Source: Paludibacteraceae bacterium (GTDB lineage: Bacteria > Bacteroidota > Bacteroidia > Bacteroidales > Paludibacteraceae). From it: a stretch of DNA of 37,482 nucleotides. The stretch spans positions 1 to 37,482 of the forward strand of contig JAFYWK010000048.1 in NCBI GenBank assembly GCA_017558065.1. Reading direction: 5' to 3'. The notes under the pieces were generated by a model. The model searched no databases. It was not told the DNA's origin and worked only from the letters and a program-made list of their open reading frames with translations. A program made the position numbers and the translations under genes. Within the stretch, counting starts at the first letter, position 1, and each line of letters starts with the position of its first letter. This document shows positions 6,956 to 35,554 of this stretch, one piece after another.

Positions 6956-7585
6956 ATGATGAAAGTACTACTCATTAATGGCAGTCCACGTGCGAATGGC
7001 AATACCAGTATTGCGCTGGCAGAGGTGGCAAAAACTTTAGAGTCAGAAGGGATAGAGACAATTACCATAGGCATTGGTAATCAGCCCGTTCGCGGTTGTG
7101 TGGCTTGTGGCGCATGCCATACCAAGAAAGGGCAATGTGCCTTCTCGGACCTGCTCTATGACCAGTTGCACGCTATTCTGACCGAAGGTGTAGATGGCTT
7201 GGTGGTGGGTTCGCCTGTGTATTATGCAGGACCCAACGGCTCGCTGTGTGCGTTGCTTGACCGCTTGTTCTATTCGGCGGGTATGCTACTCTCCTACAAA
7301 CCCGCTGCAGCTGTGGCGGTATGCCGAAGAGGTGGGGCGAGTGCCTGCTTTGATAGACTGAATAAGTACTTTACTATCAATAATATGCCCGTGGTGTCAT
7401 CGCAGTACTGGAATAGCGTACACGGTTGGGAGAAAGGCGAAGCCGAGCACGATGCCGAAGGACTACAAACCATGCGCACGCTGGCGCGCAATATGGCATG
7501 GATGATGCGTAATCTCGCCAAAGAGCAACGCCCCGAGAGCGAGAAACCGAAGATGAGAACGAATTTTATTGAGGTTAAAGGTTAG
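6956..7585 (+). CDS. Flavodoxin-fold NAD(P)H-dependent FMN reductase / iron-sulfur flavoprotein-like
   Basis: A 209-residue protein with a flavodoxin-like fold: FMN phosphate-loop LLINGSPRANGNTS at residues 5-18 and GSPVYYAGPNGSLCALLDR near 85-103. Cysteines at 48, 51, 54 and 61 give a compact CX2CX2CX6C motif. This resembles the [4Fe-4S] motif of Isf-type iron-sulfur flavoproteins, which transfer electrons to quinones, oxygen or peroxide. The physiological partner is unknown. Start Met1 or Met2 (6959) cannot be separated. The last residues (EVKG) and the stop codon are encoded by the first two units of a 7-base tandem array. The gene is divergent from ettA and probably leads the genes that follow. 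Confidence 0.85.
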   Translation: MMKVLLINGSPRANGNTSIALAEVAKTLESEGIETITIGIGNQPVRGCVACGACHTKKGQCAFSDLLYDQLHAILTEGVDGLVVGSPVYYAGPNGSLCALLDRLFYSAGMLLSYKPAAAVAVCRRGGASACFDRLNKYFTINNMPVVSSQYWNSVHGWEKGEAEHDAEGLQTMRTLARNMAWMMRNLAKEQRPESEKPKMRTNFIEVKG

Positions 7586-7620
7586 AGGTTAAAGGTTAAA
7601 GGCGAAAGGTTAAAGGCAAG
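7572..7620 (+). repeat. 7-base tandem array, seven units (49 bases)
   Basis: Units are AGGTTAA, AGGTTAG, AGGTTAA, AGGTTAA, AGGCGAA, AGGTTAA and AGGCAAG. The array overlaps the end of the flavoprotein gene, whose stop TAG is in unit 2, and ends 5 bases before the next ATG. A second array of exactly the same size, also ending AGGCAAG, lies at 12297-12345 on the other strand. Confidence 0.9.
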
Positions 7621-7625
7621 GATAT

Positions 7626-8126
7626 ATGACAAAAGAAGATATAGAGGTACGCGTAGCGCGCGCGAAGGAACTTTTTCATCAGGGATTCAATTGTAGCCAA
7701 TCGGTGTTTGCTGCTTGTGCAGACCTATACGGCATAGAGGACGAAGCATTAGCTTTGCGCCTGTCTGCTTCATTTGGCGGCGGTATAGGACGTATGCGAC
7801 AGACTTGTGGCGCTGCGTGTGGTATGTTTATGTTGGCAGGATTGGAGAATGGTAGTGCTACGCCTCATGATGCAGAAGGCAAGAAGCAAAACTATGCCCT
7901 CGTGCAGGAGCTGGCGGAGCAGTTTAAGCAAGAGAATGGCAGTCTGATTTGTTCGGAATTGCTGGGTCTGGCCTCTCCTAAATCCTCCCCTAAAGGGAAG
8001 GACTTTACAAACCCTACGCCCGCTCCCCGTACAGAGGAATACTATCAAAAACGCCCCTGTGCAGAGATGGTAGCCAGCGCCGTACGCATCTTCCTAACCA
8101 CTCTAAACAATTCTATACAACTCTAA
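7626..8126 (+). CDS. C_GCAxxG_C_C family putative redox protein with in-frame insertions
   Basis: A 166-residue protein of the C_GCAxxG_C_C family: FNCSQSVFAA at 21-30, GGGIGRM at 51-57, CGAACG at 61-66, and further cysteines at 109 and 145. The family is predicted to be redox-active or metal-binding, but its reaction is not established. Two parts look foreign. Residues about 116-137 (Pro/Ser/Lys-rich) are encoded by a dispersed-repeat-like sequence. The last eight residues and the stop codon come from the 10-base array at 8100-8148. Without these the protein would have the family's usual size of about 140 residues. It lies between the flavoprotein and lpdA genes, consistent with a redox role. 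Confidence 0.8.
   Translation: MTKEDIEVRVARAKELFHQGFNCSQSVFAACADLYGIEDEALALRLSASFGGGIGRMRQTCGAACGMFMLAGLENGSATPHDAEGKKQNYALVQELAEQFKQENGSLICSELLGLASPKSSPKGKDFTNPTPAPRTEEYYQKRPCAEMVASAVRIFLTTLNNSIQL
7973..8010 (+). repeat. Dispersed-repeat-like sequence inside a coding region
   Basis: The stretch CCTCTCCTAAATCCTCCCCT, followed by AAAGGGAAGGACTTT, resembles short CCTCCCC/GGGGAGG interspersed elements seen in Bacteroidota genomes (from memory, not searched). It is in frame and encodes a Ser/Pro/Lys-rich insertion between two conserved cysteines. Confidence 0.45.
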
Positions 8127-8148
8127 CAACTCTAAACAACTCTACACA
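8100..8148 (+). repeat. 10-base tandem array in the lpdA leader
   Basis: Units are ACTCTAAACA, ATTCTATACA, ACTCTAACA (nine bases), ACTCTAAACA and ACTCTACACA. The array begins inside the preceding gene, supplies its stop codon (8124-8126), and ends 8 bases before the lpdA ATG. It is related to the arrays at 3604-3643 and 35515-35554. Confidence 0.85.
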
Positions 8149-8156
8149 ACATACTT

Positions 8157-9545
8157 ATGAAATACTTTCTTGCAATTATTGGTGGTGGTCCAGCAGGATA
8201 TACTGCCGCAGAATTAGCCTCAAAGGCAGGCAAAGATGTGGTTATCTTTGAGCAAAATGCATTGGGTGGAACGTGTCTGAATGTAGGATGTATTCCCACT
8301 AAGACATTGCTATACAGTGCAAAACAATATTATAATGCCAAAAATGCTGCGAAATATGGTGTTTCAGCGGAGAATGTGGCGTTCGACTATACCAAGATTG
8401 TGCAACGCAAAACGAAAGTGGTTCGCAAACTGGTGGCGGGTATTAAGCAGAAGCTTAATAACGAGCATTGTAGCGTAGTTATGGGGGCTGCATCCGTTAT
8501 TAGTCGAACGGATGACAATGTGGTGATTGCTTGTGGAGAAGAACAGTACGAGGCTGAGAATCTGCTGATCTGTACAGGTTCTACCAACTTTGTACCACCT
8601 ATCCCAGGCATACAAGATAACCCAGCCGTATGGGATTCTACGGATGCGCTAGATACCAAAGAATTGCCAGCATCGATGATTATCGTAGGCGGTGGTGTGA
8701 TTGGTATGGAATTCGCTACCTTATACCACGAGTTGGGCGTGCCTGTGACAGTGATAGAGGCGATGCCAACGATATTGCCTAACCTCGATCAGGAGGTGGT
8801 GGGTATTCTTTTGGAGAAATATCGCAAGGCGGGTATTCAGATATTGACCGATACCAAAGTAACTGAACTGCAAGGCAATAAGGTGCTGACAACGAATGGC
8901 GAATACGAGGCGGAGCATATATTGGTCTCTGTAGGTCGTCGTGCGAACATGCAGGGATTGGAGGCGCTGAACGATATAGAGATTTATCGAGGTGGTATTG
9001 TGGTGGATGAGTTTATGAAGACCAATCTCAAGAATGTCTATGCTGCAGGTGATGTGACAGGTAAAATCATGTTGGCGCATGTGGCAAGTCGCCAAGCTGA
9101 AGTGGCTGTAGGACGTATGCTCAAGCAGTTGCCATTGCAACGCATTGCTTACAACGCGATACCAAGTGTGGTATATACTAATCCTGAGATCGCATGTATC
9201 GGACTGACCGAGAAAGACCTCAACGATATTCGTGAAGGCGACTTTGCACCTACCATGTCGCTCGACAAACCTTTCGTAGAATACGAGGTACACAAACTGC
9301 CAATGACCTATTCAGGACGCTTTGTGGCTGAGAATGAGGGAGAAACAGGGTTGTGCAAGGTGATTGTGGACAAGAAGAACAAGACCATCATTGGCGTGCA
9401 CATGATTGGCAACCCATGTTCGGAGTTCGTGGCAGCTGCCAGCTTTGCCGTACGTATGGGATATACGGTAGGCGAGTTTAAACAAGTGGTCTTCCCGCAT
9501 CCAACGGTGGGCGAAGTACTACGCGAAGTCATCGCAGAGTTATAA
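8157..9545 (+). CDS. lpdA: Dihydrolipoamide dehydrogenase (E3)
   Basis: A 462-residue flavoprotein disulfide reductase of normal E3 length. It shows the FAD-binding GGGPAGYTAA at 9-18, the redox-active pair C40/C45 in GGTCLNVGCIPTK, and the NAD-binding VGGGVIGMEFATLY near 178. Also present are the second FAD motif NVYAAGDVTG and the C-terminal His-Glu dyad H448/E453 in FPHPTVGE. It reoxidises dihydrolipoamide of 2-oxoacid dehydrogenase complexes or the glycine cleavage system with NAD+. No E1, E2 or gcv gene is adjacent, so the complex it serves is not shown. A 10-base repeat array lies immediately upstream and a 9-base array immediately downstream. Confidence 0.95.
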   Translation: MKYFLAIIGGGPAGYTAAELASKAGKDVVIFEQNALGGTCLNVGCIPTKTLLYSAKQYYNAKNAAKYGVSAENVAFDYTKIVQRKTKVVRKLVAGIKQKLNNEHCSVVMGAASVISRTDDNVVIACGEEQYEAENLLICTGSTNFVPPIPGIQDNPAVWDSTDALDTKELPASMIIVGGGVIGMEFATLYHELGVPVTVIEAMPTILPNLDQEVVGILLEKYRKAGIQILTDTKVTELQGNKVLTTNGEYEAEHILVSVGRRANMQGLEALNDIEIYRGGIVVDEFMKTNLKNVYAAGDVTGKIMLAHVASRQAEVAVGRMLKQLPLQRIAYNAIPSVVYTNPEIACIGLTEKDLNDIREGDFAPTMSLDKPFVEYEVHKLPMTYSGRFVAENEGETGLCKVIVDKKNKTIIGVHMIGNPCSEFVAAASFAVRMGYTVGEFKQVVFPHPTVGEVLREVIAEL

Positions 9546-9549
9546 AATA

Positions 9550-9594
9550 ACTAGCATAACTAGTAAAACTAGTACTACTAGCATAACTAGTTCT
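9550..9594 (+). repeat. 9-base tandem array, five ACTAGNNNN units
   Basis: Units are ACTAGCATA, ACTAGTAAA, ACTAGTACT, ACTAGCATA and ACTAGTTCT. The array ends 6 bases before the ATG of the tRNA-editing gene. A four-unit relative is in the dnaK leader (32300-32335). Confidence 0.9.
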
Positions 9595-9600
9595 AGAAAT

Positions 9601-10122
9601 ATGGAAAGACAAGAGAAAGTATTGGCGTATTTGGAGGAGCATGGCATTGCGTATGAGTGCTACAACCACCCTGAGGGTAAGACCATAGAGGAAGCCAAAC
9701 GTTGGTGGAAGGACGATGGCAGTGTGCACTGCAAGAATATCTTCATGCGCAACCACAAGGGTACGCAGCATTATCTCATCTGCTTTGACTGCGAGCACGA
9801 CTTGGCGATACACGACTTGGAGCAACGCCTCAAGGCTTCATTACTGGCAGCAGGAAAGAACTCACCAGGCAAACTCTCTTTTGCTAGTCCCGAACGCATG
9901 ATGCGCTATTTGGGTTTGGAACCGGGCAGTGTGAGTCCCTTTGGACTCATCAATGATGAGGAACATCATGTGATATTGTTCTTGGATAAGAACCTGCAAG
10001 AGGCGGATAGCCTGAGTTTTCACCCCAATGACTGTCGTGGCACGGTAGTTATCAAACGTGAGGACTTCCTAACCTATCTGCAGTGCGTAGGCAATACGGT
10101 GGAGTGGATAGAGTTGTATTAG
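9601..10122 (+). CDS. Prolyl-tRNA editing protein, ProX/YbaK-like (PrdX family)
   Basis: A 173-residue single-domain protein of the YbaK/ProX trans-editing superfamily, of usual length. Visible family features are an N-terminal helix, the Lys-containing CKNIFMRN, KLSFASPERM, SPFGLINDEEHHV with the conserved substrate-pocket residues, and FHPNDCRGTVVI. Relatives hydrolyse mischarged tRNA(Pro), in particular Ala-tRNA(Pro). Which aminoacyl-tRNA this protein edits is inference. The start is fixed by the array that ends 6 bases upstream. Confidence 0.85.
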   Translation: MERQEKVLAYLEEHGIAYECYNHPEGKTIEEAKRWWKDDGSVHCKNIFMRNHKGTQHYLICFDCEHDLAIHDLEQRLKASLLAAGKNSPGKLSFASPERMMRYLGLEPGSVSPFGLINDEEHHVILFLDKNLQEADSLSFHPNDCRGTVVIKREDFLTYLQCVGNTVEWIELY

Positions 10123-10127
10123 TGGAT

Positions 10128-10183
10128 AGGTTTAAGGTTGAAGGAATTAAGGTTAAAGGTGAAGCTGAAGGAATTAAGGAATT
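10128..10183 (+). repeat. 7/8-base AGGTTAA-type array before gtrA-like gene
   Basis: Units are AGGTTTA, AGGTTGA, AGGAATTA, AGGTTAA, AGGTGAA, GCTGA, AGGAATTA and AGGAATT. The array fills the whole space between the editing gene stop and the next ATG (10184). It is a looser member of the family at 7572-7620. Confidence 0.75.
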
Positions 10184-10591
10184 ATGGAAAAGAAGAATAC
10201 GAAAGAGTGGGTAAGGGTGCTGAAGTTTGTGCTGTTTTCTGCCAGTGCAGGCATTATTCAGATTGGCTCCTTTACGCTGCTCAATGAGTGTACAGGATGG
10301 CGATACTGGCCATGTTATTTGATTTCGCTGCTGTTGAGTATCCTTTGGAACTTCACATTCAATCGCCGATTTACCTTCAAGTCCAACGCAAATATCACCC
10401 GTGCCATGCTGTTGGTATTGGCGTTTTATGCCGTATTTACGCCTGTGACTACGGTATTGGGCGACTGGTTAGCAGAAGATTTGCTTTGGAATGAATACTT
10501 GGTAACGGGTATAAATATGCTACTCAACCTCTCGTTGGAGTACTTATACCAACGTTATGTGGTATATCGAAATAAGGTCGATGATAGATAA
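10184..10591 (+). CDS. GtrA family membrane protein
   Basis: A 135-residue protein with four predicted transmembrane helices. It has GtrA-family features: KFVLFSASAGIIQIGSF in helix 1, WNFTFNRRFTF between helices 2 and 3, and a C-terminal YLYQRYVVYR. GtrA proteins are proposed to flip polyprenyl-phosphate-linked sugars or support cell-surface glycan modification. No glycosyltransferase is adjacent, so the substrate is unknown. The S1/P1 nuclease gene follows after 25 bases. Confidence 0.85.
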   Translation: MEKKNTKEWVRVLKFVLFSASAGIIQIGSFTLLNECTGWRYWPCYLISLLLSILWNFTFNRRFTFKSNANITRAMLLVLAFYAVFTPVTTVLGDWLAEDLLWNEYLVTGINMLLNLSLEYLYQRYVVYRNKVDDR

Positions 10592-10616
10592 TATTAACTA
10601 ATTGAATAATAATAAT

Positions 10617-11402
10617 ATGAAACGATTACTTGCAGTTTACTTTATGCTCGTGGCTATCGTGCCAAGTATGCACCATCTCTATGCTTGGGGGCAAAAAGGT
10701 CATCGTATTGTGGCACAAGTGGCATACGATAATCTGACCAATAAAGCGCGCAAACAGATTGATGCCGTATTGGGCAAACATGGTATGATTTACTTATCCA
10801 CATGGCCCGATGAAATAAAGAGTGATACGATTTATCCTACCAGTTTCACTTGCCATTACCAAGATTTGGATGGCGGACTGACCGATGCTGAGGTAGTGGC
10901 AATGCTGACGGATTATCCTGAGGTGGGTGGTGACTTGTTTATGGCGTTGGATAGTTTGGAAGTGGTGCTTACAGGTAACAAGCAGTCTCACGATGCATTG
11001 GTGTTCTATGTGCACCTGTATGCCGATCGTTTTTGCCCTATGCATGTGGCGCATTTGGATGACAAAGGTGGCAATGCGGTTAAGATGAAGTGGTTTGGTC
11101 AAAACACCAACCTGCACTCCATATGGGACGGTAAGATTATCGATAGCAAGGGCTTTAGCTATAGCGAATATGCCATATATCTCCATGATGTATATGGTGG
11201 CAAAAAGCGTGAGGTGATGAAACTCACGGATGAGGAAACCATTTTGCAAACCTATCATATCACCGATGCTATTTATCAATATCACGCCACTTGGAATGGC
11301 AATGCCTACCACTATACCTACCATTGGACTAAGCCAATGGAGTGGCAAATGTATGTGGCTGGCGTGAAGTTAGCACAAAGTCTGAATATGATATACAAGT
11401 AA
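10617..11402 (+). CDS. Secreted S1/P1 family nuclease
   Basis: A 261-residue protein with an N-terminal signal peptide probably cleaved after Ala23, leaving Trp24 as the new N-terminus. In S1/P1 nucleases the N-terminal Trp is a zinc ligand. Other family zinc residues are visible: H29 in WGQKGHR, D65 in WPDEIKSD, H80 in TCHYQDLDGG, and the later MHVAHLDDKGGN and NLHSIWDGK motifs. Such three-zinc enzymes cut single-stranded nucleic acids and remove 3'-phosphates. It is probably periplasmic or extracellular and used in nucleic-acid scavenging. I use the ATG at 10617; a TTG five codons upstream is less likely. Confidence 0.9.
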   Translation: MKRLLAVYFMLVAIVPSMHHLYAWGQKGHRIVAQVAYDNLTNKARKQIDAVLGKHGMIYLSTWPDEIKSDTIYPTSFTCHYQDLDGGLTDAEVVAMLTDYPEVGGDLFMALDSLEVVLTGNKQSHDALVFYVHLYADRFCPMHVAHLDDKGGNAVKMKWFGQNTNLHSIWDGKIIDSKGFSYSEYAIYLHDVYGGKKREVMKLTDEETILQTYHITDAIYQYHATWNGNAYHYTYHWTKPMEWQMYVAGVKLAQSLNMIYK

Positions 11403-11457
11403 TCGCGAATATATGTTCTGGATTTTATTGACTATATTCTTCGCAACACGTAACCGC

Positions 11458-12270
11458 ATGATAGACTTTACATTACGCAAATATCGTGAATTGCTCGTAG
11501 CTTTGCAGAAAAAGGGGTATAAATTCATTACTTTTGAGCAGTATTGCGAGCAAAAAATAGCCTCATCACCTAATAGCCTCATCGCCTCATCGCCTTACAT
11601 TATCCTCCGTCACGATGTAGATCTCAAGGCAGCGAATAGTTTGGCGACTGCTAAGATTGAGCATGAGTTAGGAATAGCGGCGAGTTACTATTTTCGGGTA
11701 GTGCCAGAGAGCAATCAGCCCGAGATGATTCGTGCGATAGCGGATTTGGGACACGAGATAGGGTATCACTATGAGGATATGGCTATCGCACATGGCGATG
11801 CAGAGAAAGCGTACGCGCATTTCCAAGAGCAGTTGGCATATTTCAGGACATATTATCCAGTGCGTACTATTTGTATGCATGGTGCACCTACCAGCCAATG
11901 GGACGGAAAGGAACTATGGAAAAAGTATAATTACCGCGATTTGGGTATTATAGGCGAGCCGTATTTTGATGTGGATTTTGGTCAGGTGTTTTATTTGACA
12001 GATACGGGGCGTTGTTGGGATGGGTATAAGGTGTCGGTTAGGGATAAGATTCCTGTATATCAAGACCAATGGAATGCGCAAGGGTTGGTGTATCATGCCA
12101 CGGATGATATAATAAAATCGGCAGAGCAGGGCAGTCTGCCACCTCGTATCATGATTACTACGCATCCGCAACGCTGGACGGACAATCGCCGAGCATGGGT
12201 GAAGGAGATTATGATTCAAAATGCGAAGAACGTTATCAAACGATTGATAATCAAAATAAAAGGTCACTAA
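11458..12270 (+). CDS. Polysaccharide deacetylase-like (NodB-fold) protein
   Basis: A 270-residue protein starting MIDFTLRKYRELL. The motif LRHDVD near residue 47 matches the NodB metal-binding Asp-Asp strand, and DLGHEIGYHYED matches the second metal-binding region. The family fold is a distorted TIM barrel acting on N- or O-acetyl groups of glycans, but this branch has no known substrate. No signal peptide is seen when starting at 11458; the earlier in-frame ATG at 11413 would add a short hydrophobic N-terminus. Residues about 34-46 (Ala/Ser/Pro-rich) are encoded by an 8-base repeat array (11558-11597) placed just before the catalytic motif. The stop codon overlaps the terminator stem. Confidence 0.75.
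   Translation: MIDFTLRKYRELLVALQKKGYKFITFEQYCEQKIASSPNSLIASSPYIILRHDVDLKAANSLATAKIEHELGIAASYYFRVVPESNQPEMIRAIADLGHEIGYHYEDMAIAHGDAEKAYAHFQEQLAYFRTYYPVRTICMHGAPTSQWDGKELWKKYNYRDLGIIGEPYFDVDFGQVFYLTDTGRCWDGYKVSVRDKIPVYQDQWNAQGLVYHATDDIIKSAEQGSLPPRIMITTHPQRWTDNRRAWVKEIMIQNAKNVIKRLIIKIKGH
11558..11597 (-). repeat. 8-base tandem array inside the deacetylase-like gene
   Basis: Plus-strand units are TAGCCTCA, TCACCTAA, TAGCCTCA, TCGCCTCA and TCGCCTTA. On the minus strand they read TGAGGCGA-like, sharing the AGGCGA core of the 7-base arrays. The reading frame stays open through the array. Confidence 0.7.
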
Positions 12271-12285
12271 GTTTAGTGACCTTTT
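12258..12285. terminator. Terminator after the deacetylase-like gene
   Basis: A perfect 13-base stem (12258-12270 and 12273-12285) has a 2-base centre and flanking A and T tracts on both sides. It could therefore stop transcription from both directions. It overlaps the last codons of the deacetylase-like gene. Confidence 0.85.
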
Positions 12286-12296
12286 ATTGTTTTCTA

Positions 12297-12345
12297 CTTG
12301 CCTTTAGCCTCTCACCTCTAACCTCTCACCTCTCACCTTTAACCT
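12297..12345 (-). repeat. 7-base tandem array, seven units (49 bases)
   Basis: Minus-strand units are AGGTTAA, AGGTGAG, AGGTGAG, AGGTTAG, AGGTGAG, AGGCTAA and AGGCAAG. It matches the 7572-7620 array in length, unit count and final unit. It lies 4 bases past the stop of the small acidic protein gene. Confidence 0.9.
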
Positions 12346-12349
12346 CTCA

Positions 12350-12703: not shown

Positions 12704-12729
12704 AATTTCTAATATTTTGGTGAATTTGC

Positions 12730-12763: not shown

Positions 12764-12798
12764 ATTATTTAGGAAATAATTATCAAAAATAGTATTTT

Positions 12799-14557: not shown

Positions 14558-14608
14558 CTTCTATTTATCACTTCTATTTATTTCTTCAATTATCTCTTCT
14601 ATTTGTCC
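14558..14608 (+). repeat. 13-base tandem array, four units
   Basis: Units are CTTCTATTTATCA, CTTCTATTTATTT, CTTCAATTATCT (12 bases) and CTTCTATTTGTCC. The array starts just past the terminator. It opens an 800-base AT-rich stretch (14540-15362) with no convincing gene. Confidence 0.75.
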
Positions 14609-15290: not shown

Positions 15291-15357
15291 TTGTAAATAG
15301 TGCAAGTTATAGAATAAATCGTAGTTTGTAAATTGTAAATAGTCAATTGTCAAATAG
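15291..15357 (+). repeat. A/T-rich repeats in the XRE regulator leader
   Basis: TTGTAAATAG occurs at 15291-15300 and 15333-15342, with TTTGTAAA and TCAATTGTCAAATAG filling the space up to the ATG. It is degenerate, but in the same leader position as the other arrays. Confidence 0.5.
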
Positions 15358-15362
15358 TAAAT

Positions 15363-15758
15363 ATGAATGAGCGTGATCGTGTATTGCAGGTAATGCAATC
15401 GGAAGGCATGAATGCCAAGCAGTTTTGTCAGGAAGTGGGTATTAGTCAGGGAACGTTGTCTAATATCATGGGTGGAAGGAATAAGCCCAGTTTGGATGTG
15501 ATGCAAGCAATATTGCGTCGTTTTCGTGCGGTGAGTTGTGATTGGTTGATTATGGGTGTGGGCACGATGTATGTGGCTGGTGCGAGAGAGGAAGGTATGT
15601 TGCCGCTATTTGATAGTGATACAAAGGCGGAGGAAGCTGTTGTGCCAGTGGCGAACGTTATGGTTGAGGAAAAGAAGACGACGATGGCTGTTGTGGCATC
15701 CCGAACGGTGTCAAAGATTATGGTCTTTTACTCCGATGGTACGTTTGAGGAGCGGTAG
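15363..15758 (+). CDS. XRE/Cro-C1-type transcriptional regulator
   Basis: A 131-residue protein. Residues 1-60 form a helix-turn-helix of the Cro/C1 type: MNAKQFCQEVGISQGTLSNI is the recognition region, followed by GRNKPSLDVMQAILRRF. A linker follows, and a less conserved C-terminus ends with a short beta-like segment (SKIMVFYSDGTFEER), perhaps for dimerisation or ligand binding. Targets are unknown. Inverted repeats in the 800 bases upstream are natural candidates for autoregulatory sites, but this is inference. A terminator follows about 50 bases past the stop. Confidence 0.85.
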   Translation: MNERDRVLQVMQSEGMNAKQFCQEVGISQGTLSNIMGGRNKPSLDVMQAILRRFRAVSCDWLIMGVGTMYVAGAREEGMLPLFDSDTKAEEAVVPVANVMVEEKKTTMAVVASRTVSKIMVFYSDGTFEER

Positions 15759-18851: not shown

Positions 18852-18923
18852 GGTGGATTGTGTAGGGTGTAGAGTGTAAAGGCAGGTGATAGCTGCTTGA
18901 TTATATGCTCATCACTCGGCGAG

Positions 18924-18967
18924 GTCACGATAAAGTCACGATGAAGTCACGATGAGATCACGATGGA
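18924..18967. repeat. 11-base tandem array, four units
   Basis: Units are GTCACGATAAA, GTCACGATGAA, GTCACGATGAG and ATCACGATGGA. It lies in the gap between umuD and the divergent phosphoesterase gene. The 11-base period puts each unit on the same face of the helix. The rest of the 418-base gap holds the two promoters and the hairpin. Confidence 0.85.
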
Positions 18968-25214: not shown

Positions 25215-25856
25215 ATGGCTATTAATTATCAATTTAATAAAACATCGTTGCAGGCTTTGGAGAAAGACCTCAAGATGCGCCAACGTACTTTGCCTACGCT
25301 GCAGAGCAAAGAGTCGGCTCTCCGACTCGAAGTGAAGCGAGCTAAGGACGAGATTAAGGCGCTGGACGAAGAGGTGGATCGCCGTATCAAAGACTACGAT
25401 CAGATGTTAGCACTCTGGGGCGAGTTTGACACGAGTCTCATCCATGTGGACGAGGTGCGCATGACGATCAAGAAGATCGCCGGCGTACGCGTACCCGTAT
25501 TGGAAGAGGTGGTGTACTCAACCAAGGAGTTTAGCATCTTCTCTTCTCCTAAATGGTTTGCAGACGGTTTCAACCAACTCAAAGCCATTGCCGACGTAGG
25601 TATTCGTCAGGAGTTTGTGCGCCGCAAGGTGGAACTGCTGGACTATGCTCGCAAGAAAACTACCCAAAAGGTAAACCTTTTCGAGAAAGTGCAAATACCT
25701 GGTTTCCAAGATGCTATCCGTAAGATCAAACGTTTTATGGAAGACGAGGAGAACCTGAGCAAGTCATCGCAAAAGATTGTTAAGTCTAAGCGCGAGGCAG
25801 AGGCACGTATGGCAGAGGAGTTGGCTAAGAAAGAAGGAAAGGGGGCACAAGTATGA
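25215..25856 (+). CDS. atpD: V-type ATPase central-axle subunit D
   Basis: A 213-residue protein, mostly long helices. The N-terminal (about 10-60) and C-terminal (about 130-200) coiled-coil arms, with a loop region between them, form the rotor axle as in other D subunits. NKTSLQALEKDLKMRQRTLP near the start is typical. The C-terminal end is Lys/Glu-rich. The stop overlaps the subunit I start (ATGA), so translation is coupled. Confidence 0.92.
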   Translation: MAINYQFNKTSLQALEKDLKMRQRTLPTLQSKESALRLEVKRAKDEIKALDEEVDRRIKDYDQMLALWGEFDTSLIHVDEVRMTIKKIAGVRVPVLEEVVYSTKEFSIFSSPKWFADGFNQLKAIADVGIRQEFVRRKVELLDYARKKTTQKVNLFEKVQIPGFQDAIRKIKRFMEDEENLSKSSQKIVKSKREAEARMAEELAKKEGKGAQV

Positions 25857-27616
25857 TTACGCAAATGAAGAAATACACCTTCTTGGTGTTCCATCGTGAG
25901 TATGAGGCCTTCCTCGAACAACTGCGCGACTTGGGTGTAGTGCATGTGACTGAGAAAGCCGCTGGCATGGCAGATGATGCACACTTGCAAGAACTGCTCG
26001 CTAAGGCAGATAATGCTCGCAAACTCATTGCACAAGGTGCTCCTGATCAATTGCTCAACGAGAAAGCTGCGCTCGAACAACGCATCGCAGCCACCCAAAA
26101 AGAGGCCGACAAGATGGCTATCTGGGGCGACTTCTCTGCTGAGCGCATGGAGCAACTCAAAGCAGCTGGTTACACCCTGCGCTACTTCACTTGCCCTAAG
26201 AAACTCTTCCAAGAGGAGTGGGGTATTGTGGTAGCAGAGCAAGGCGCTACTGTGTACTTCGTACAGGTGACTTCCTCAGGCGAAGAGGCGAAAGGCGAAA
26301 GTTTAGAGGCTGGAGTACAAGAGCAATATCTCAATCAGAAGTCTGCTGCTGACCTGCTGAAGGATGTAGAGGGTTTGAATGGTCTTCTCGTAGCGCAAAA
26401 CGCACGCATCGAGCTCTGGGCAAAGGAGAATATCCCTGCTTTGGAGGACGAACTCAAACAATTGCAAGAGCAGATTGACTGGAAGCGTGTTACACTCAAT
26501 ACCGACTCTGAGGCGGACGGCAGTCTGAAGATTCTTGAGGGCTTCTGCCCAATCGACCAAGTGGCTGCATTAGATGCTGTATTGGAAAAACAAGAGGTTT
26601 ACTACCAAGCCGAAGACCCAACAGCAGAGGACAATACACCTATCAAACTGCGCAATAACAAGTTTACCCAACTCTTTGAAAGTCTGACTGGTATGTATGG
26701 TTGGCCAAACTATGGTGAGTTTGATCCTACACCTATCTTGGCACCATTCTTCCTCTTGTTCTTCGCGATGTGTATGGGCGACTGCGGTTATGGTATCTTG
26801 CTCATTATCATCGGATTGCTCATCGCTAAGAAGAAGCTCAATATCGAGATGTTTGACGGTCTTGGCCCTATCATCACCGTATTGGGTGTAGGTACTACGG
26901 TGGTAGGTTTCTTCCTGGGAACCTTCATGGGTATTGACCTCTACGCTGCTGAGTGGATGCCACAGGCATTGAAGTCAGTCATGATCAAAGGCGAGGTGAT
27001 GGGCTACGATATCCAAATGGTATTGGCACTCTGCATTGGTGTGTTCCATATTTGTTTGGCGATGGTGGTGAAAGCTATCTGCTACACCAAGCAATTTGGC
27101 TTCAAGGAGAATATCGCTACTTGGGGCTGGACTTTGCTCATCGTAGGCGGATTGTTGGTGGCTATCCTCGGCATGACCGTATTGCCAGCTGCAGTATTCA
27201 AAGGAGCGATTATCGCTGTGGGTACCATATCTGCTTTGGCAATCTATATCTTCAATACACCTGGTCGCAACCCATTGATTAACATTGGTGCTGGTTTGTG
27301 GGAAACCTATAACATGGCAACTGGTATCTTGGGTGATGTGCTCTCCTATATCCGTCTGTATGCCCTCGGTTTGGCAGGTGGTATGTTGGGTGCAGCGTTC
27401 AACAACTTGGGTTTGATGGTGATGGGCGGCAGTACCGAAGGTGCAACCTGGCAATGGTTGCCATTCGTGCTGATCCTCGTGTTGGGCCACGTATTGAACT
27501 TGGCGATGTCTGCGCTGGGTGCGTTTGTTCACCCATTGCGTTTGAGCTTCGTGGAGTACTTCAAGAACGCTGGTTACGAAGGTAAAGGTACCTTGTATAA
27601 ACCATTTAAAAAGTAA
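25853..27616 (+). CDS. atpI: V-type ATPase membrane subunit I (a-type)
   Basis: A 587-residue protein with a soluble N-terminal half (about 1-290, coiled-coil arms) and a C-terminal half with seven or eight transmembrane helices. The essential half-channel arginine lies in LSYIRLYALGLAGG near 494-507, followed by LNLAMSALGAFVHPLRLSFV. It carries ions past the K ring. The protein is somewhat shorter than the roughly 650 residues common elsewhere. A repeat array (26278-26313) in the N-terminal half encodes a Gly/Glu/Ala/Lys-rich loop (about 142-154). The start is ATG at 25853 in ATGA overlap; Met at 25865 is possible. Confidence 0.95.
   Translation: MITQMKKYTFLVFHREYEAFLEQLRDLGVVHVTEKAAGMADDAHLQELLAKADNARKLIAQGAPDQLLNEKAALEQRIAATQKEADKMAIWGDFSAERMEQLKAAGYTLRYFTCPKKLFQEEWGIVVAEQGATVYFVQVTSSGEEAKGESLEAGVQEQYLNQKSAADLLKDVEGLNGLLVAQNARIELWAKENIPALEDELKQLQEQIDWKRVTLNTDSEADGSLKILEGFCPIDQVAALDAVLEKQEVYYQAEDPTAEDNTPIKLRNNKFTQLFESLTGMYGWPNYGEFDPTPILAPFFLLFFAMCMGDCGYGILLIIIGLLIAKKKLNIEMFDGLGPIITVLGVGTTVVGFFLGTFMGIDLYAAEWMPQALKSVMIKGEVMGYDIQMVLALCIGVFHICLAMVVKAICYTKQFGFKENIATWGWTLLIVGGLLVAILGMTVLPAAVFKGAIIAVGTISALAIYIFNTPGRNPLINIGAGLWETYNMATGILGDVLSYIRLYALGLAGGMLGAAFNNLGLMVMGGSTEGATWQWLPFVLILVLGHVLNLAMSALGAFVHPLRLSFVEYFKNAGYEGKGTLYKPFKK
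26278..26313 (+). repeat. AGGCGAA-type array inside atpI
   Basis: Units are AGGCGAAG, AGGCGAA, AGGCGAA, AGTTTAG and AGGCTGG on the sense strand, in frame. The surrounding gene uses highly biased codons; this patch does not fit them. Confidence 0.7.
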
Positions 27617-29707: not shown

Positions 29708-29712
29708 GTTTT

Positions 29713-29743: not shown

Positions 29744-29809
29744 CAGCGAATTTTTAACAACGGCTCGTGCCATTAAACCACCTAACTTATTTTAACAAGA
29801 ACAACCAAT

Positions 29810-30250: not shown

Positions 30251-30270
30251 TGATGAGCGATTGGAAATAT

Positions 30271-30305
30271 AAAAAGGACTATCCATTGGTGGGATAGTCC
30301 TTTTT
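30271..30305. terminator. Bidirectional terminator between convergent genes
   Basis: A perfect 14-base stem (30271-30284 with 30292-30305) has an A tract on the left and a T tract on the right, so it works in both directions. It serves the membrane protein gene and dnaK. Confidence 0.9.
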
Positions 30306-30353
30306 TTGTTTAGTGGACGGCGATGCCGCCTACTGTTTAGCGTTTAGAGGGGA

Positions 30354-32264
30354 TTACTTCACTTCCTCGAAGTCCACATCCTCGGCTGCGCTTTGGTTGT
30401 TGTTGCCTGATTGTGCACCGCCTGTGAAGTCAGCACCTGATTGAGGACCAGCTTGACCTTGAGTAGCGTTGTACATCTCAGCGCTTGCTGCTTGGAAAGC
30501 AGTCATGAGGGCTTGGTTAGCTGCCTCGCATGCGTCTGCATCCTTTTTCTCGTAAGCAGCTTTGAGGTTCTTGAGTGCCTCTTCAATAGGAGCCTTCTTG
30601 TCAGCAGGAATCTTGTCGCCGAGCTCAGCGAGTTGCTTCTCGGTTTGGAAGATAGTAGCGTCTGCTTGGTTGAGCTTAGCAATACGCTCAGCCTCTTTCT
30701 TATCTGCCTCAGCATTAGCCTCTGCTTCAGCCTTCATGCGCTTGATCTCAGCGTCGCTCAAGCCGCTTGATGCCTCGATGCGGATCTTTTGCTCCTTGCC
30801 TGTAGCTTTGTCCTTAGCGGTTACGTTGAGGATACCGTTGGCGTCGATATCGAAGGTCACTTCGATCTGTGGCTCACCACGGCGTGCTGGCATGATACCA
30901 TCGAGGTGGAAGCTACCGATGAGTTTGTTTTGTTGCGCCATTGGACGCTCGCCTTGATATACCTTGATCTCTACAGATGGTTGGTTATCCACGGCTGTGG
31001 TGAAGGTCTCAGCTTTCTTGGTAGGGATAGTGGTGTTGGCCTCAATCATCTTGGTCATCACGCCACCCATGGTCTCGATACCGAGAGAGAGTGGGGTTAC
31101 GTCGAGGAGGAGGACATCCTTCACATCGCCTGTCAAGACACCACCTTGGATAGCTGCACCGAGAGCTACTACCTCGTCTGGGTTAACGCCCTTAGATGGA
31201 GCTTTGCCGAAGAATTTCTCTACTGCTGCTTGGATAGCAGGGATACGGGTTGAACCACCTACGAGGATGATCTCGTCGATATCGCCTACAGAGAGACCTG
31301 CGTTTTGCAATGCGGTACGGCATGGAGCGATAGTACGTTGTACAAGGTCGTCCACCAATTGCTCAAACTTAGCACGTGTGAGGGTCTTCACCAAGTGTGC
31401 TGGCACACCGTCCACAGGCATGATGTAAGGCAAGTTGATCTCAGAAGAAGTGGTGTTAGAGAGTTCGATCTTAGCTTTCTCAGCAGCCTCTTTGAGGCGT
31501 TGCATAGCCATAGGGTCTTTGCTAAGGTCTGCACCTGCATTGTCGTTCTTGAACTCTTGTACGAGCCAGTCGATAATGCGGTGATCGAAGTCGTCACCAC
31601 CAAGGTGGGTATCACCGTCGGTAGATTTTACCTCGAATACGCCGTCGCCGAGTTCGAGCACAGATACGTCGTGTGTACCACCACCGCAGTCGAATACTAC
31701 GATCTTCATATCCTTGTCGCTCTTGTCGAGACCATAAGCGAGAGCAGCAGCTGTTGGCTCGTTCACGATACGGCGAACATTAAGACCAGCGATCTCGCCT
31801 GCCTCTTTGGTAGCTTGGCGTTGGCTGTCGTTGAAGTATGCAGGTACGGTGATAACTGCTTCTGTCACCTCTTGACCAAGATAATCCTCAGCGGTCTTCT
31901 TCATCTTTTGGAGAATGATAGCTGAGATCTCTTGTGGGGTGTAGAGACGGCCGTCGATGTCCACGCGTGGGGTGTTGTTGTCGCCCTTTACTACCTTATA
32001 AGGTACGCGCGCTACTTCATTAGCAAGACGGTCATAAGTCTCACCCATGAAACGCTTGATTGAATATACGGTACGGGTAGGGTTGGTGATTGCTTGACGC
32101 TTAGCAGGGTCGCCCACTTTGCGCTCGCCACCATCTACGAAGCCAATCACTGATGGGGTAGTACGTTTACCCTCAGAGTTGGTGATAACTACAGGCTCAT
32201 TGCCTTCCATAACTGCGACGCAGGAGTTAGTTGTTCCTAAGTCGATACCAATAATTTTTCCCAT
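30354..32264 (-). CDS. dnaK: Chaperone DnaK (Hsp70)
   Basis: A 636-residue Hsp70 of full length. It has the ATPase motifs [11 protein letters not shown] at 6-16, [20 protein letters not shown] near 195, and [10 protein letters not shown] near 338. The linker [19 protein letters not shown] leads to the substrate-binding domain, and the C-terminal tail is rich in Gly, Asn and Gln and ends DVDFEEVK. It refolds client proteins with DnaJ and GrpE, neither of which is in the window. The leader contains a 9-base ACTAG array, so the distance from promoter to start is about 90 bases. Confidence 0.98.
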
Positions 32265-32299
32265 TTTATTTAAGTTTTTTTAGTTTATACTTGTTGATT

Positions 32300-32335
32300 C
32301 TTACTAGTTGGGCTAGTTGAACTAGGCGAACTAGT
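32300..32335 (-). repeat. 9-base tandem array in the dnaK leader
   Basis: On the sense (minus) strand the units are ACTAGTTCG, CCTAGTTCA, ACTAGCCCA and ACTAGTAAG. They have the same period and core as the array before the tRNA-editing gene at 9550-9594. Confidence 0.8.
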
Positions 32336-32362
32336 TTGCTATAGTATAATCAAATGCCGTGC

Positions 32363-32392
32363 CAAAGTGATTTTTGCACAAAAAACTGACAA
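32363..32392 (-). promoter_or_regulatory. Candidate promoter for dnaK
   Basis: Minus-strand TCACTTTG (complement of 32363-32370) with TTG (complement of 32390-32392), spacer 19. The -7 element lacks the usual TA, so this is weaker than the others. No CIRCE-like inverted repeat was seen. Confidence 0.45.
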
Positions 32393-32417
32393 GTAACTGA
32401 CAAAATGGCAGAACTTT

Positions 32418-32448
32418 TTGCATATGTCATAAAAAAGTACTACCTTTG
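32418..32448 (+). promoter_or_regulatory. Promoter for the phosphopantetheinyl transferase gene
   Basis: TTG (32418-32420), a 20-base spacer and TACCTTTG (32441-32448), only 8 bases before the ATG. The mRNA would be nearly leaderless. Confidence 0.75.
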
Positions 32449-32456
32449 CAGTCGTT

Positions 32457-33044
32457 ATGACTTATTGCCTGTTTGATGATATGACGCAATGCACTGAGCA
32501 AGAAGTGGCTCGGCTGTTGCCATTGGTGAGCGACCAACGTCGCCAGCAGGCATTGGCGTACAAACATCTGTTTGGGCAGTTCTGTTGCCTGAAGTCATAC
32601 GAGTTGCTTGTGCAACTGCTTGCCTCTACTGGCTACCAGACACCAGATGCCTGCCTTCCTCTCTTCTTCTACAACGAACACGGCGCCCCATGCCTTGAGC
32701 ATGGTCCATATTTCTCTATCTCGCATTGTAAGCATGGAATAGCAGTGGCTGTTAGCGAAAAGCCGATAGGTATTGATATAGAGCATATTCGCACCGCTAA
32801 ACCCGAATTAGTAGCACGCACCATGAATGAAAAGGAGCAAAATGTGATATGCTCAGCTCCCTCGCCCGATGTGGCATTCACGCGCCTTTGGACACAGAAA
32901 GAGGCGGTTCTGAAAATGCAAGGCACAGGCATCCTCAGTATAGATGGCATGAAAAATACCTTGGTCGCAATCGAACATGTCGATTTGCAAACCAAGGTAA
33001 ATATCGCTAAGCAGTATGCTTATACCCTTGCTGTTCTGCGATAA
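32457..33044 (+). CDS. 4'-phosphopantetheinyl transferase (Sfp superfamily)
   Basis: A 195-residue protein. It contains FSISHCKHG at 86-94, the Mg2+-binding GIDIEHIR with Asp107 and Glu109, and the catalytic WTQKEAVLK with Trp145, Lys148 and Glu149. Such enzymes attach the phosphopantetheine arm of CoA to a Ser of carrier proteins (ACP or secondary metabolism carriers). The length of about 195 residues is short of the 220-240 of Sfp and typical for the Bacteroidota form. Its native carrier is not shown. The 3' end converges with lon. Confidence 0.88.
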   Translation: MTYCLFDDMTQCTEQEVARLLPLVSDQRRQQALAYKHLFGQFCCLKSYELLVQLLASTGYQTPDACLPLFFYNEHGAPCLEHGPYFSISHCKHGIAVAVSEKPIGIDIEHIRTAKPELVARTMNEKEQNVICSAPSPDVAFTRLWTQKEAVLKMQGTGILSIDGMKNTLVAIEHVDLQTKVNIAKQYAYTLAVLR

Positions 33045-33046
33045 TG

Positions 33047-33074
33047 GGACGCCGGACTCCGGCTCCCGGACGCC
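33047..33074. repeat. GC-rich 7-base tandem array between convergent genes
   Basis: Units are GGACGCC, GGACTCC, GGCTCCC and GGACGCC. It fills most of the 36-base gap between the phosphopantetheinyl transferase and lon stop codons. It can also fold (GCCGG/CCGGC). Confidence 0.7.
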
Positions 33075-33080
33075 TAAATA

Positions 33081-35507
33081 TTACAGCAACGCGAAATCTA
33101 TCACCTCCTGAATATCCTTCACATAGTGGAAGGACAGCCCTTTGAGGTATTTAGGGGCTATATCCTCTACATCCTTGCGGTTGTCTTGGCAGAGTACCAA
33201 ATCGGTGATTCCAGCACGTTTGGCAGCCAAAATCTTCTCTTTCACACCACCGATTGGTAGTACTTTACCGCGGAGTGTCATCTCGCCTGTCATAGCAATG
33301 CGTGGACGCACTTTGCGGCGTGTAAACGCACTCACGAGTGCTGTTGTCATAGTAATACCAGCACTTGGACCATCCTTAGGTATAGCACCTTCTGGCACAT
33401 GCACATGCACGGATGTAGTGTCCAGTTTCTTGCGGGCAATACCAAACTGCTCCGCATGGGCTTTGATATATCCAAGTGCGATGGTGGCAGACTCCTTCAT
33501 CACATCGCCCAAGTTACCTGTGAGCGTGAGAGTAGGGGTCTTCGATGGCGAGAGCGAGGTCTCGATGAAGAGTATCTCACCGCCCACTTGCGTCCATGCC
33601 AGACCTGTCACTACACCTATATATTTATTAGTCTCCCACTCATCGCGTGAGTAACGTTGCTTGCCGAGATATGCCACGAGGTCTTCGCTCGTCACGGACA
33701 CATTGTATTCCTCCTCCAGAGAGATACGTGTTACCACTTTGCGGCAGATAGCCGCAATCTGGCGCTCCAGATTACGCACACCAGACTCGCGGGTGTACTT
33801 GTCTATGATTTCTCCTACAATAGCTTTCTTGAGCTTGAGTTGGCTGGCCTTCAGACCATGGTTGTGCAACTCTTTTGGCAATAGGTGACGCTTAGCAATC
33901 TCCTCTTTCTCCTCTTGCAGATAGCCCGTCATCTCAATGAGCTCCATACGGTCGAGGAGCGGACGAGGGATAGTGTCCAAGGAGTTGGCAGTAGCAATAA
34001 AGAGCACTTTGCTCAGGTCATAATCCACGTCCAAGTAGTTATCGTGGAAAGTGCCATTCTGCTCAGGATCAAGCACTTCGAGCAATGCGCTTGTTGGGTC
34101 GCCTTTGTAGTCAGAACCGATCTTGTCTATCTCATCCAGTACAAACACGGGATTGCTGGTCTTCACTTTTCTCAGGTTCTCAATGATACGACCGGGCATA
34201 GCGCCAATATAGGTGCGACGGTGACCACGAATCTCTGACTCGTCGTGCAATCCGCCAAGACTAATACGCGCATACTTGCGGCCGAGGGCTTCGGCGATAG
34301 AGCGACCAAGACTGGTTTTACCCACACCCGGAGGGCCATAAAGGCAGAGGATAGGGGCTTTCATGTCATCAGCCTTGCTGTTGGCTTTCATCTTCAGCAC
34401 CGCCAAGTATTCAATGATACGCTCTTTGACTTTCTCCATACCATAGTGGTCATGGTCAAGCACCGCTTGTGCGTTACGAATATCGTAATTGTCTTCGGAG
34501 TATTCGTTCCAAGGCAGATCAAGCAGGATCTCCAAGTAGTTCTGTAGGGTAGAGTACTCGGGCGAGTGGGTAGGGATACGACGCAGTTTTTTCAGATCGT
34601 TCTCAAAGGTCGCCTGCATCTTCGCGCTCCACTTCTTTTGTTTAGCGCGTTCGAGCATAGCGTTGGCCATTTGCTCGTCGGTGTTACCCAACTCACGCTG
34701 AATGGTCTCCATCTGGCGTTGCAGATAGTATTCGCGTTGCTCTTTGTCAATATCCTCTTTGGTTTTGCTCTTGATAACCTCCTTCATATCAAGCATTTGC
34801 AATTCGCTTGTGATGATTTCGAGCAGGTTGATAGCACGCTCTTTGAGCGAGGACATCTCCAGCAGACGTTGTTTGTCTGCAATGCGAACGCCAAAGTTAC
34901 CGCAGATATAGTTCACCAGAGTAGGTGGGTTATCAATGCTACGCAGGGTCATACTTGCTTCAGCGGGTATGTTCTCCATGCGTTTGAGAATCTTGTCGGC
35001 TTGGTTCTTTAGACTGCTGACCAGAGCAATAAACTCTTTGTCGTTGCGTTTGGGAAACTCTTCTTCAAAGACATGCACTTTGGCTTTCATGTATGGCTTT
35101 TGTGCGACAATTTCCTGTATCGCAATGCGTTGAATACCTTCCATGATTACCATCAGACTGCCGTCAGGCATGTCGAGGGTACGCATAACGCGTCCAGCGG
35201 TACCTATGGTGTAGAGGTCATCGGATGATGGTTCTTGCACGTCTTGTACGCGTTGGCAGCAAACGGCAAGCAGTTCGTCGTTCTTGAAGGCATTGGTAAC
35301 GAGTTTCTTGGATTTGGGTCGAGCCACAGTCACAGGCAGCAACACACCAGGAAAGAGCACCATATTGCGCAACGGCAACACGCCGAGCACATCGCCGTCT
35401 TGCAGGTTTGGTTCTTTGGTGTCATCGTCAGCAGTCAGTGGAATATATTCTACTTTTACGTTCTGATTCTCGTCGTCGTTGAATAATAATTCATCAAGGT
35501 AGGTCAT
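33081..35507 (-). CDS. lon: ATP-dependent protease Lon
   Basis: An 808-residue LonA-type protease of full length. The N-terminal substrate-binding domain begins near LGVLPLRNMVLFPGVLLPV. Walker A GPPGVGKTS is near 392 and Walker B VFVLDEIDKI follows. The proteolytic domain has Ser near 712 in DGPSAGITM and Lys near 755 in GGVKEKILAAKRAG. It degrades misfolded and regulatory proteins in the cytoplasm. The ATG is preceded within 8 bases by a 10-base repeat array; no TAnnTTTG promoter was found in the 200 bases upstream. Confidence 0.98.
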   Translation of the reverse strand: MTYLDELLFNDDENQNVKVEYIPLTADDDTKEPNLQDGDVLGVLPLRNMVLFPGVLLPVTVARPKSKKLVTNAFKNDELLAVCCQRVQDVQEPSSDDLYTIGTAGRVMRTLDMPDGSLMVIMEGIQRIAIQEIVAQKPYMKAKVHVFEEEFPKRNDKEFIALVSSLKNQADKILKRMENIPAEASMTLRSIDNPPTLVNYICGNFGVRIADKQRLLEMSSLKERAINLLEIITSELQMLDMKEVIKSKTKEDIDKEQREYYLQRQMETIQRELGNTDEQMANAMLERAKQKKWSAKMQATFENDLKKLRRIPTHSPEYSTLQNYLEILLDLPWNEYSEDNYDIRNAQAVLDHDHYGMEKVKERIIEYLAVLKMKANSKADDMKAPILCLYGPPGVGKTSLGRSIAEALGRKYARISLGGLHDESEIRGHRRTYIGAMPGRIIENLRKVKTSNPVFVLDEIDKIGSDYKGDPTSALLEVLDPEQNGTFHDNYLDVDYDLSKVLFIATANSLDTIPRPLLDRMELIEMTGYLQEEKEEIAKRHLLPKELHNHGLKASQLKLKKAIVGEIIDKYTRESGVRNLERQIAAICRKVVTRISLEEEYNVSVTSEDLVAYLGKQRYSRDEWETNKYIGVVTGLAWTQVGGEILFIETSLSPSKTPTLTLTGNLGDVMKESATIALGYIKAHAEQFGIARKKLDTTSVHVHVPEGAIPKDGPSAGITMTTALVSAFTRRKVRPRIAMTGEMTLRGKVLPIGGVKEKILAAKRAGITDLVLCQDNRKDVEDIAPKYLKGLSFHYVKDIQEVIDFALL

Positions 35508-35514
35508 AGGTGTA

Positions 35515-35554
35515 TTGTGTAGTATTGTTTAGAGTTGTTTAGAATTGTGTAGAT
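35515..35554 (-). repeat. 10-base tandem array in the lon leader
   Basis: Plus-strand units are TTGTGTAGTA, TTGTTTAGAG, TTGTTTAGAA and TTGTGTAGAT. It has the same family, orientation and distance to the start codon as the array before lpdA. The rest of 35508-35714 shows only the aspS terminator. Confidence 0.85.

Follow-up and report, generated by a model that had tools for sequence, protein, structure and literature searches.

The DNA analysed here, referred to as the window, is a stretch of 37,482 b (46% GC) that makes up contig C58 of the 2.44-Mb genome of an uncultured Paludibacteraceae bacterium (G000, 83 contigs). It carries V-ATPase genes, the closest relatives of its subunit A being Paludibacteraceae or Bacteroidales records, many of them from animal guts, and many of its gene junctions hold short, degenerate tandem arrays. 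The relation of these arrays to the gene family S23 (PF05635), which codes for the 23S rRNA intervening-sequence protein and is best known as an insertion in rRNA, is the subject of this report: S23 is associated with short, commonly inverted arrays in Bacteroidales, and the association is also seen in three other phyla.

Arrays were detected with Tandem Repeats Finder (TRF), the window being scanned at a score of at least 30. Genes were taken from a simple caller with approximate starts, by which at least one gene of the window was missed (an FMN reductase-like open reading frame (ORF) ending at 7585). Ten of the eleven arrays listed in a first-pass annotation were recovered at about the same coordinates and periods; for the eleventh (33047..33074, no strand assigned), by eye a short GC-rich palindrome-like stretch, TRF reported no array. 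The plus strand applies below unless the minus strand is named, and TRF periods are given in brackets. Two arrays start within the 3′ end of the preceding ORF: an AGGTTAA 7-mer array (7572..7620, TRF 7572-7616) runs from the end of ORF 6956-7585 to 5-9 b before the ATG at 7626, and a 10-mer family array on the minus strand (8096..8150, period 10; reading ACAACTCTAA on the plus strand, by eye) spans the end of ORF 7626-8126 and stops 6 b before the ATG at 8157. A 9-mer array of ACTAGTNNA (9547..9595, 9/18) fills the gap 9546-9600, the equivalent gap of the relative L006 being without such an array, and an AGGTTAA/AAGGAATT array (10128..10189, 7/8/15) lies between genes 9601-10122 and 10184-10591, with one TRF row extending past the start at 10184. 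A 7-mer TAAATTG array (15315..15362, 7/15), absent from the earlier list, ends directly before the ATG at 15363. Arrays that end 0-9 b before a start were found at the ATGs at 7626, 8157, 9601, 10184 and 15363, which bears out the earlier statement that arrays abut start codons.

Two further arrays belong to the 10-mer family, whose unit is TNGTKTAGNN: one of about 4.7 units at 3601..3647 (10/20, also found by family search), and one at 35514..35560 (10/20), about 7 b upstream of a minus-strand start at 35507. An AGGTTAA-family array on the minus strand (12297..12349, TRF 12308-12349, 7/21) occupies a convergent gap, with a terminator-like hairpin (by eye) on one side and the stop of the minus-strand gene on the other, and is missing in L006. 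Two arrays outside the first-pass list were located inside genes: an 8-mer GCCTCATC array (11556..11595, 8/16) lies within ORF 11413-12270, for which no Pfam match was obtained, and an AGGCGAA 7-mer array (26278..26301) within the V-ATPase subunit I-like gene 25853-27616 corresponds, by alignment, to about six extra residues relative to the proteins of L003, L004 and L006. Other TRF arrays include a 13-mer array CTTCTATTTATCT (14558..14608, TRF 14558-14604), a short 7-mer GTGTAGA array that had not been listed before (18860..18878), an 11-mer array GTCACGATGAA (18924..18967, TRF 18924-18965) and a 9-mer ACTAGTTGA array of the same family as that at 9547-9595 (32300..32336, TRF 32303-32336, weak, score 40). 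By inspection, one 10-mer family joins the arrays at 3604, 8100 (inverse strand), 35515 and probably 18860, AGGTTAA is common to those at 7572, 10128 and 12297 (inverse), and ACTAGT to those at 9550 and 32300. There are thus not as many families as the idea of a different array at each junction implies, and several junctions share one.

Two samples of G000 were used beyond the window. The blind set (344,654 b) consisted of 20 stretches from contigs C1-C20 plus the window and was the only source of array densities, whereas the mixed set (687,271 b; 271 arrays at a score of at least 40, 175 of them intergenic), part of whose stretches had been picked where the 10-mer was already found, served for the catalogue and for the analyses of orientation, in-gene position, unit likeness and position conservation. 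The blind set yielded 50 intergenic and 18 coding arrays (score at least 50, period 5-22), as against 0-2 and 0-4, respectively, in five segment-wise dinucleotide shuffles. When densities were compared (units of 6-11 b, score at least 50, three shuffles per set), G000 gave 11.0 arrays per 100 kb (38 arrays) and 80 related loci gave 10.1 per 100 kb (138 arrays in 1.37 Mb), with 0-1 arrays in the shuffles of each; order-level stretches (n=14) gave 1.4 per 100 kb (3 arrays in 214 kb), and class/phylum stretches (n=20, 330 kb) gave none. The stretches of genomes G143 and G161 had been selected by pattern counts and were excluded from the order sample; that of G181 in the phylum sample had likewise been selected by a pattern count and was array-free. 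Among the genus stretches, that of G014 sat where the 10-mer was known and that of G025 lay on its lpxB contig. A chance origin of the arrays is ruled out by the shuffles, whose counts are far exceeded in the genome sample and in the relatives.

The recurrent families of G000 are TNGTKTAGNN (10), AGGTTAA (7), TATTGGA (7), AAAACTTTT (9) and several 11-mers. The 10-mer pattern was matched 172 times in G000 and its reversed control once; among 60 other genomes of the genus it was matched 14-28 times in G009, G014, G025, G039, G048 and G054, more weakly in G058 (6 matches) and at control level (0-2) in the remainder, and 58 genomes from other genera of the family gave 0-3 matches. For AGGTTAAAGGTTAAAGG, 194 matches were found in G000 (4 for the reversed control) and 167 in one genome from another family. 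From these distributions each genome seems to amplify its own units. The reversed control pattern GGAAATTGGAAATTGGA was itself amplified in two genomes of the order search (175 matches in G161, 75 in G170) and therefore does not serve as a clean control beyond the genus. These counts suggest that other genomes amplify other heptamers, although TRF found no array in 24,918 b sampled from G161. The degeneracy of the units and the recurrence of families at distant loci, first noted from the window, were thus confirmed genome-wide: a few unit families per genome or species, which seem to be species-specific, occur at dozens of loci. Within the 10-mer (21 period-10 arrays, taken without a motif filter), positions 1, 3, 4, 6, 7 and 8 show one base in 88-94% of units and positions 2, 5, 9 and 10 in only 53-70%, an unevenness that does not fit uniform decay. 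As a separate observation, two composite gaps of G143, from another family of the order (L143:470-1048 and 7324-7503), hold heptamer arrays in equal order, GTTGATG then CCTTAAA, and in two copies AATCTGA stands between these, which looks like the copying of composite blocks.

Turnover was followed at five V-ATPase junctions in 53-77 relatives, where the spacers vary from a few bases to hundreds or more and many hold differing arrays. Spacers of at least 30 b were counted at E/DUF2764 in 33/77 loci, DUF2764/A in 49/77, A/B in 42/61, B/D in 29/61 and I/K in 46/53, and TRF arrays were present in 20, 22, 20, 18 and 13 of them, respectively; the D and I genes overlap in 55/55 loci, and their junction has no array. 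Between L004 and L006, the aligned pieces of whose operons are 91-96% identical, inserts of 97, 638, 215 and 177 b are opposed to junctions of -2, 7, 9 and 64 b, all of them placed between the stop codon of one V-ATPase gene and the start of the next. An S23 gene (PF05635, identified with Pfam) lies in the 638-b insert of L004, between arrays and inverted arrays. By inspection, many inserts fold back, either as an array followed by its inverse or as constant-frame units around a variable small hairpin. The folding z-score fell below -2 in 38 of 80 inserts of 60-240 b (mean -1.86) and in 4 of 28 coding controls (mean -0.87); one single example gave -5.7.

Three side observations concern such inserts. 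In some arms the frame of the units is constant while the two sides of a small hairpin within it covary, for example GCGATTTATCGC and GCGGTTTACCGC, so that structure rather than sequence seems to be kept (L261, downstream of S23; L002:13089-13251; L003:8611-8775). Two near-alike 10-mer foldback elements lie 1.1 kb apart in G000 (L119:3136-3223 and 4251-4339) and are the clearest case of whole-element copying. A/B junction spacers of 2,269-2,442 b were found in 11 of 61 loci.

Members of the S23 family were found in 48 of 61 genomes of the genus and in 42 of 60 genomes of the order search, as against none of 14 control genomes. For 50 distinct S23 ORFs, of which genomes of the genus supplied 47 and the relatives L003 and L004 the other 3, the flanks were scored by the best match of the upstream 160 b to the inverted downstream 160 b. 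The median inverted flank score of S23 was 25.5, that of 304 controls drawn from the genus was 16 (p=3e-16), and the same medians resulted with 1322 control genes from all loci (p=3e-18); 24 of the 50 S23 ORFs exceeded the 99th percentile of the genus controls, so that arms able to form a stem are present in only some copies. A tandem array lay within 160 b of 37/50 S23 genes and of 91/304 genus genes (p=4e-9). In the order Bacteroidales, sampled with one locus per family, the inverted score was 31 for S23 (n=27) and 17 for controls (n=26, p=3e-6). Likeness between S23 proteins at different sites goes with likeness between their arms (Mantel rho 0.26, p=0.001, uncorrected for host kinship; 50 proteins, 17 same-site pairs excluded), and across the order the two-heptamer match counts correlate with S23 counts (rho 0.56, n=59, uncorrected for composition, genome size and kinship). 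G000 itself has 8 S23 matches, 6 above the cut-off, and at 3 of these 6 full-score loci the arms have 7-27 dispersed relatives.

On plasmids, a search detected S23 in 43 records, which come mostly from Nostoc, Calothrix and other cyanobacteria. From the 40 of these that were listed, 14 loci (12 cyanobacterial, one from Gemmatimonadota and one from Alphaproteobacteria) were picked before their flanks were seen. S23 occupies plasmid gaps such as cas6-S23-cas4 and cas10-S23-cmr3, and lies between (AGGGAAC)4 and (CTGTTCC)7 in Nostoc sp. C052 and between (AGTAGGG)8 and (TCCCTAC)5 in N. edaphicum. Arrays (TRF score at least 40) adjoin S23 at 14/14 loci but only 22/74 other genes of two of these plasmids (p=6e-7), inverted matching exceeded the best of 200 shuffles at 9/14 loci, and on two plasmids S23 ranked 1st of 31 and 1st of 45 genes for inverted flanks (scores of 60 and 63, the next best being 22). 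At one of the 14 loci, from Azospirillum (L349), S23 and the heptamer-type arrays on both of its sides lie within a match to bacterial large-subunit rRNA. This is the only locus placed in 23S rRNA; the arrays of the window and the V-ATPase inserts lie between or inside protein genes. The recurrence of S23 beside arrays, often between inverted ones, in Bacteroidales, in Cyanobacteria, on one plasmid from Gemmatimonadota and in the rRNA of Azospirillum suggests a single type of element.

The arrays described here may, with about an even chance, be the arms (in most cases solo arms) of a class of foldback elements related to the intervening sequences (IVSs) of 23S rRNA. A complete element would consist of a degenerate short tandem array, the S23 gene (PF05635), which encodes a four-helix-bundle protein, and the same array inverted, and its RNA or single strand could form a stem whose loop carries the gene. 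With or without the gene, these elements would lodge in operons, between the stop codon of one gene and the start of the next, and in 23S rRNA, there as IVSs; gene-less arrays would also seat in frame within protein genes. A seated array would then change length by local duplication of a few units, some unit positions staying fixed. None of the 8 S23 matches of G000 lies on the window contig, and all arrays of the window are without an ORF. We infer that solo arrays such as these are arms or relatives of S23 elements; those of the window would be solo arms descended from S23-bearing elements, S23 or the arms may take part in movement, and the stem may be cut from mRNA, by analogy with the removal of IVSs from rRNA by RNase III. 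Among the earlier proposals, transposition of short sequence seeds comes closest to this: inserts come and go, copies occur in frame and foldback arrays enclose S23 genes.

Several results weigh against this explanation. In the order sample the difference in tandem flanks was marginal (21/27 vs 14/26, p=0.06; the control genes were neighbours of S23 and may share its arrays). The S23 flanks of G000 showed no excess of dispersed relatives over the flanks of other genes (p=0.28, n=6 vs 87), and neither the 10-mer nor the AGGTTAA family has a clear S23 copy of its own in that genome. Stretches of ten genus genomes with no S23 match still held 13 arrays over 133.6 kb, or 9.7 per 100 kb, four of these stretches being array-free; those of ten genomes with 5-10 S23 matches held 25 arrays over 157.9 kb, or 15.8 per 100 kb, a difference short of significance (p=0.19). 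The 10-mer family is also present in G025 and G048, which gave no S23 match, although at a completeness of 89-91%. Solo 10-mer arrays at different loci share exact strings with a mean of 11.4, compared with 11.8 for randomly dealt units, so that copying of whole solo arrays between loci is unsupported. Five of the 14 plasmid loci have flanks with no inverted match; on a Pseudanabaena galeata plasmid (L339), S23 lies between AAAAGCT x15.6 and AAAAGCC x14, which are direct and not inverted. For the 98-b foldback of L004, the folding energy indicated no unusual stability (z -1.6).

Alternatively, the arrays might be cis-acting leader or intercistronic sites, either repeated motifs to which a host factor binds in mRNA or DNA or unstructured leaders for translation starts in Bacteroidetes, and S23 might merely settle nearby or in hairpin tips. 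This is considered rather unlikely. In its favour, 10-mer elements in codirectional gaps have one orientation in 15/18 cases (1 opposite, 2 foldbacks), AGGTTAA matches in such gaps are sense in 5/5 and end 4-5 b before the start, 45/95 codirectional intergenic arrays end within 20 nt of the downstream start, the fixed and variable positions of the 10-mer resemble a recognised motif, and arrays persist in genomes with no S23 match. The same catalogue holds 35 arrays in divergent and 17 in convergent gaps, and 83 of the 271 arrays lie wholly within called genes, 45 of these with a period that is not a multiple of three. In-frame arrays sit in conserved genes; 11 10-mer arrays fall in called genes, of which 7 were scanned with Pfam (LpxB, two Mur ligases, MraW methylase, RseC, a 4Fe-4S protein and an HflX-like GTPase). 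In the 4Fe-4S protein and the HflX-like GTPase the array is near one end of the protein, so that a wrong start or a tail is possible. The 10-mer insert in LpxB is common to G000 and G014 among 30 orthologous loci (G000 included), the others having different loops there, a few of which read like another repeat family (QRSGLSAERSV...); the Mur ligase loops vary among orthologues likewise. The in-gene arrays weaken a pure role as translation leaders, and against the leader explanation stand also the agreement of arms among similar S23 proteins at different sites, the inverted S23 flanks in other phyla and the loss of whole arrays between relatives that are 91-96% identical. The earlier suggestion of leader elements tuning translation agrees with orientation and spacing in operon gaps but not with the arrays in genes, in convergent gaps and beside S23 in rRNA. 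Element arms could be tolerated, or used, before start codons, and in that case the element and the leader-motif explanations could both apply.

Ordinary replication slippage in tolerant spacers, with neutral decay and with recurrence due to similar spacer composition, is regarded as improbable. Units are more alike within arrays (0.79) than between them (0.75; null maximum 0.77; 22 arrays, 102 units), next-but-one units are the most alike (0.82), which indicates local duplication by two units, and perfect longer repeats of 19 and 21 b are present in the mixed-set catalogue, all of which speaks for slippage; it leaves unexplained that one unit occurs at dozens of loci in one species (172 matches vs 1 for the control) and at control level in most congeners, that conservation is specific to positions within the unit, and that foldbacks and the S23 association exist. 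Spread of the units by a REP/RAYT-type transposase (Y1_Tnp) or by a reverse transcriptase is given very little credence. Repetitive extragenic palindromic (REP) sequences, bacterial interspersed mosaic elements (BIMEs) and REPINs with RAYT are dispersed, hairpin-forming intergenic repeats in inverted arrangements, and the hairpin-rich gap repeats described here resemble them in these respects, but the present units are tandem and degenerate. Y1_Tnp had no match in 9 of 16 tested genus genomes, G000 and G014 among them, and RVT_1 had none in 12 of 16, including the 10-mer carriers G009, G014, G039, G048 and G054; one reverse-transcriptase match was found in G000. A link to either enzyme is unsupported, and so, on the same reverse-transcriptase counts, is the template-directed system envisaged at first. 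S23 resembles Avd of diversity-generating retroelements, but a search of the S23 profile against the PDB, which gave two S23-like structures and no Avd at E ≤ 1, did not show kinship in sequence.

The foldback elements proposed here share features with several known repeats. Short tandemly repeated repetitive (STRR) heptamers of filamentous cyanobacteria form dispersed heptamer arrays, and on several plasmids of Nostoc, Anabaena and Calothrix the arms of S23 likewise take the form of heptamer arrays, a likeness at the level of description. Rickettsia palindromic elements are inserted in frame in conserved protein genes, as are the 10-mer arrays; they are one conserved palindromic sequence of 100-150 b, whereas the present inserts consist of short tandem units and by inspection, no search aimed at it having been made, show no single conserved element. 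The 23S rRNA IVS of Coxiella is reported to have tandem heptamers (GACAGAT, 2-3 copies) before the S23 start, and IVSs with an S23 ORF are described as selfish (PMC4990558). The placement of S23 in the loop of an inverted-repeat stem is common to IVSs and to the present elements, where it is seen in complete copies only (e.g., the 638-b insert of L004); in contrast to IVSs, the present elements are hosted by intercistronic gaps and protein genes and have degenerate tandem arrays as arms, and many of them lack an ORF.

TAACTGA direct repeats are reported from Beggiatoaceae, Cyanobacteria and some Bacteroidetes, with two sets in Paludibacter, and form heptamer arrays in gaps, often just before starts and sporadically across phyla (MacGregor 2015, PMC4679880). 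The present arrays share the placement of heptamers in gaps and often just before start codons, and differ in that many degenerate, species-specific families take the place of the one fixed unit reported there. No TAACTGA pair (up to 1 mismatch) was found in the window, and 2 of 353 loci have one, by which TAACTGA was rejected as the unit here. By term counts, PMC4679880 contains neither 's23' nor 'four helix bundle protein'. The first-pass verdict that no described system covers the pattern was too strong, heptamers before starts (PMC4679880) and before the S23 gene of an IVS (PMC4990558) having been described. Among the titles and abstract openings listed by searches of openly licensed literature, none connects dispersed tandem repeats of gene gaps with S23 or 'four helix bundle protein'. 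S23-bearing IVSs, TAACTGA repeats and STRRs have each been known on their own; joining them appears to be new as far as these searches show.

It is possible, though held with more doubt than confidence, that S23 elements are a widespread, overlooked kind of mobile DNA of mRNA gaps and rRNA helices, and that their arms, which the S23 protein would help to seed and extend, gave rise both to the dispersed heptamer-type repeats of Bacteroidales and Cyanobacteria and to the array inserts seen in protein loops. To judge from the searches, S23 intervening sequences and dispersed short tandem repeats have so far been handled as unrelated oddities. If the proposal is true, the repeats, a feature known for decades without a cause, would gain a candidate agent, and the widespread S23 protein, whose function is unknown, a candidate job; both arrays and S23 are open to testing in culturable cyanobacteria and Bacteroidales. 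The results also show that arrays of this kind can make loops of essential proteins longer and that, even between close relatives, they can split operon genes apart.

Unlike the families with 7-10-base units, several 11-base families occupy central positions in longer gaps, mostly at a distance of 40-400 b from called genes. Examples are the array at 18924-18967 of the window, whose family was found at three further sample sites (130-210 b from called genes on the visible sides), and those at L101:5063-5107, L121:15073-15129 and L131:12101-12149. One helical turn per unit suggests a role at the level of DNA and perhaps a separate phenomenon.

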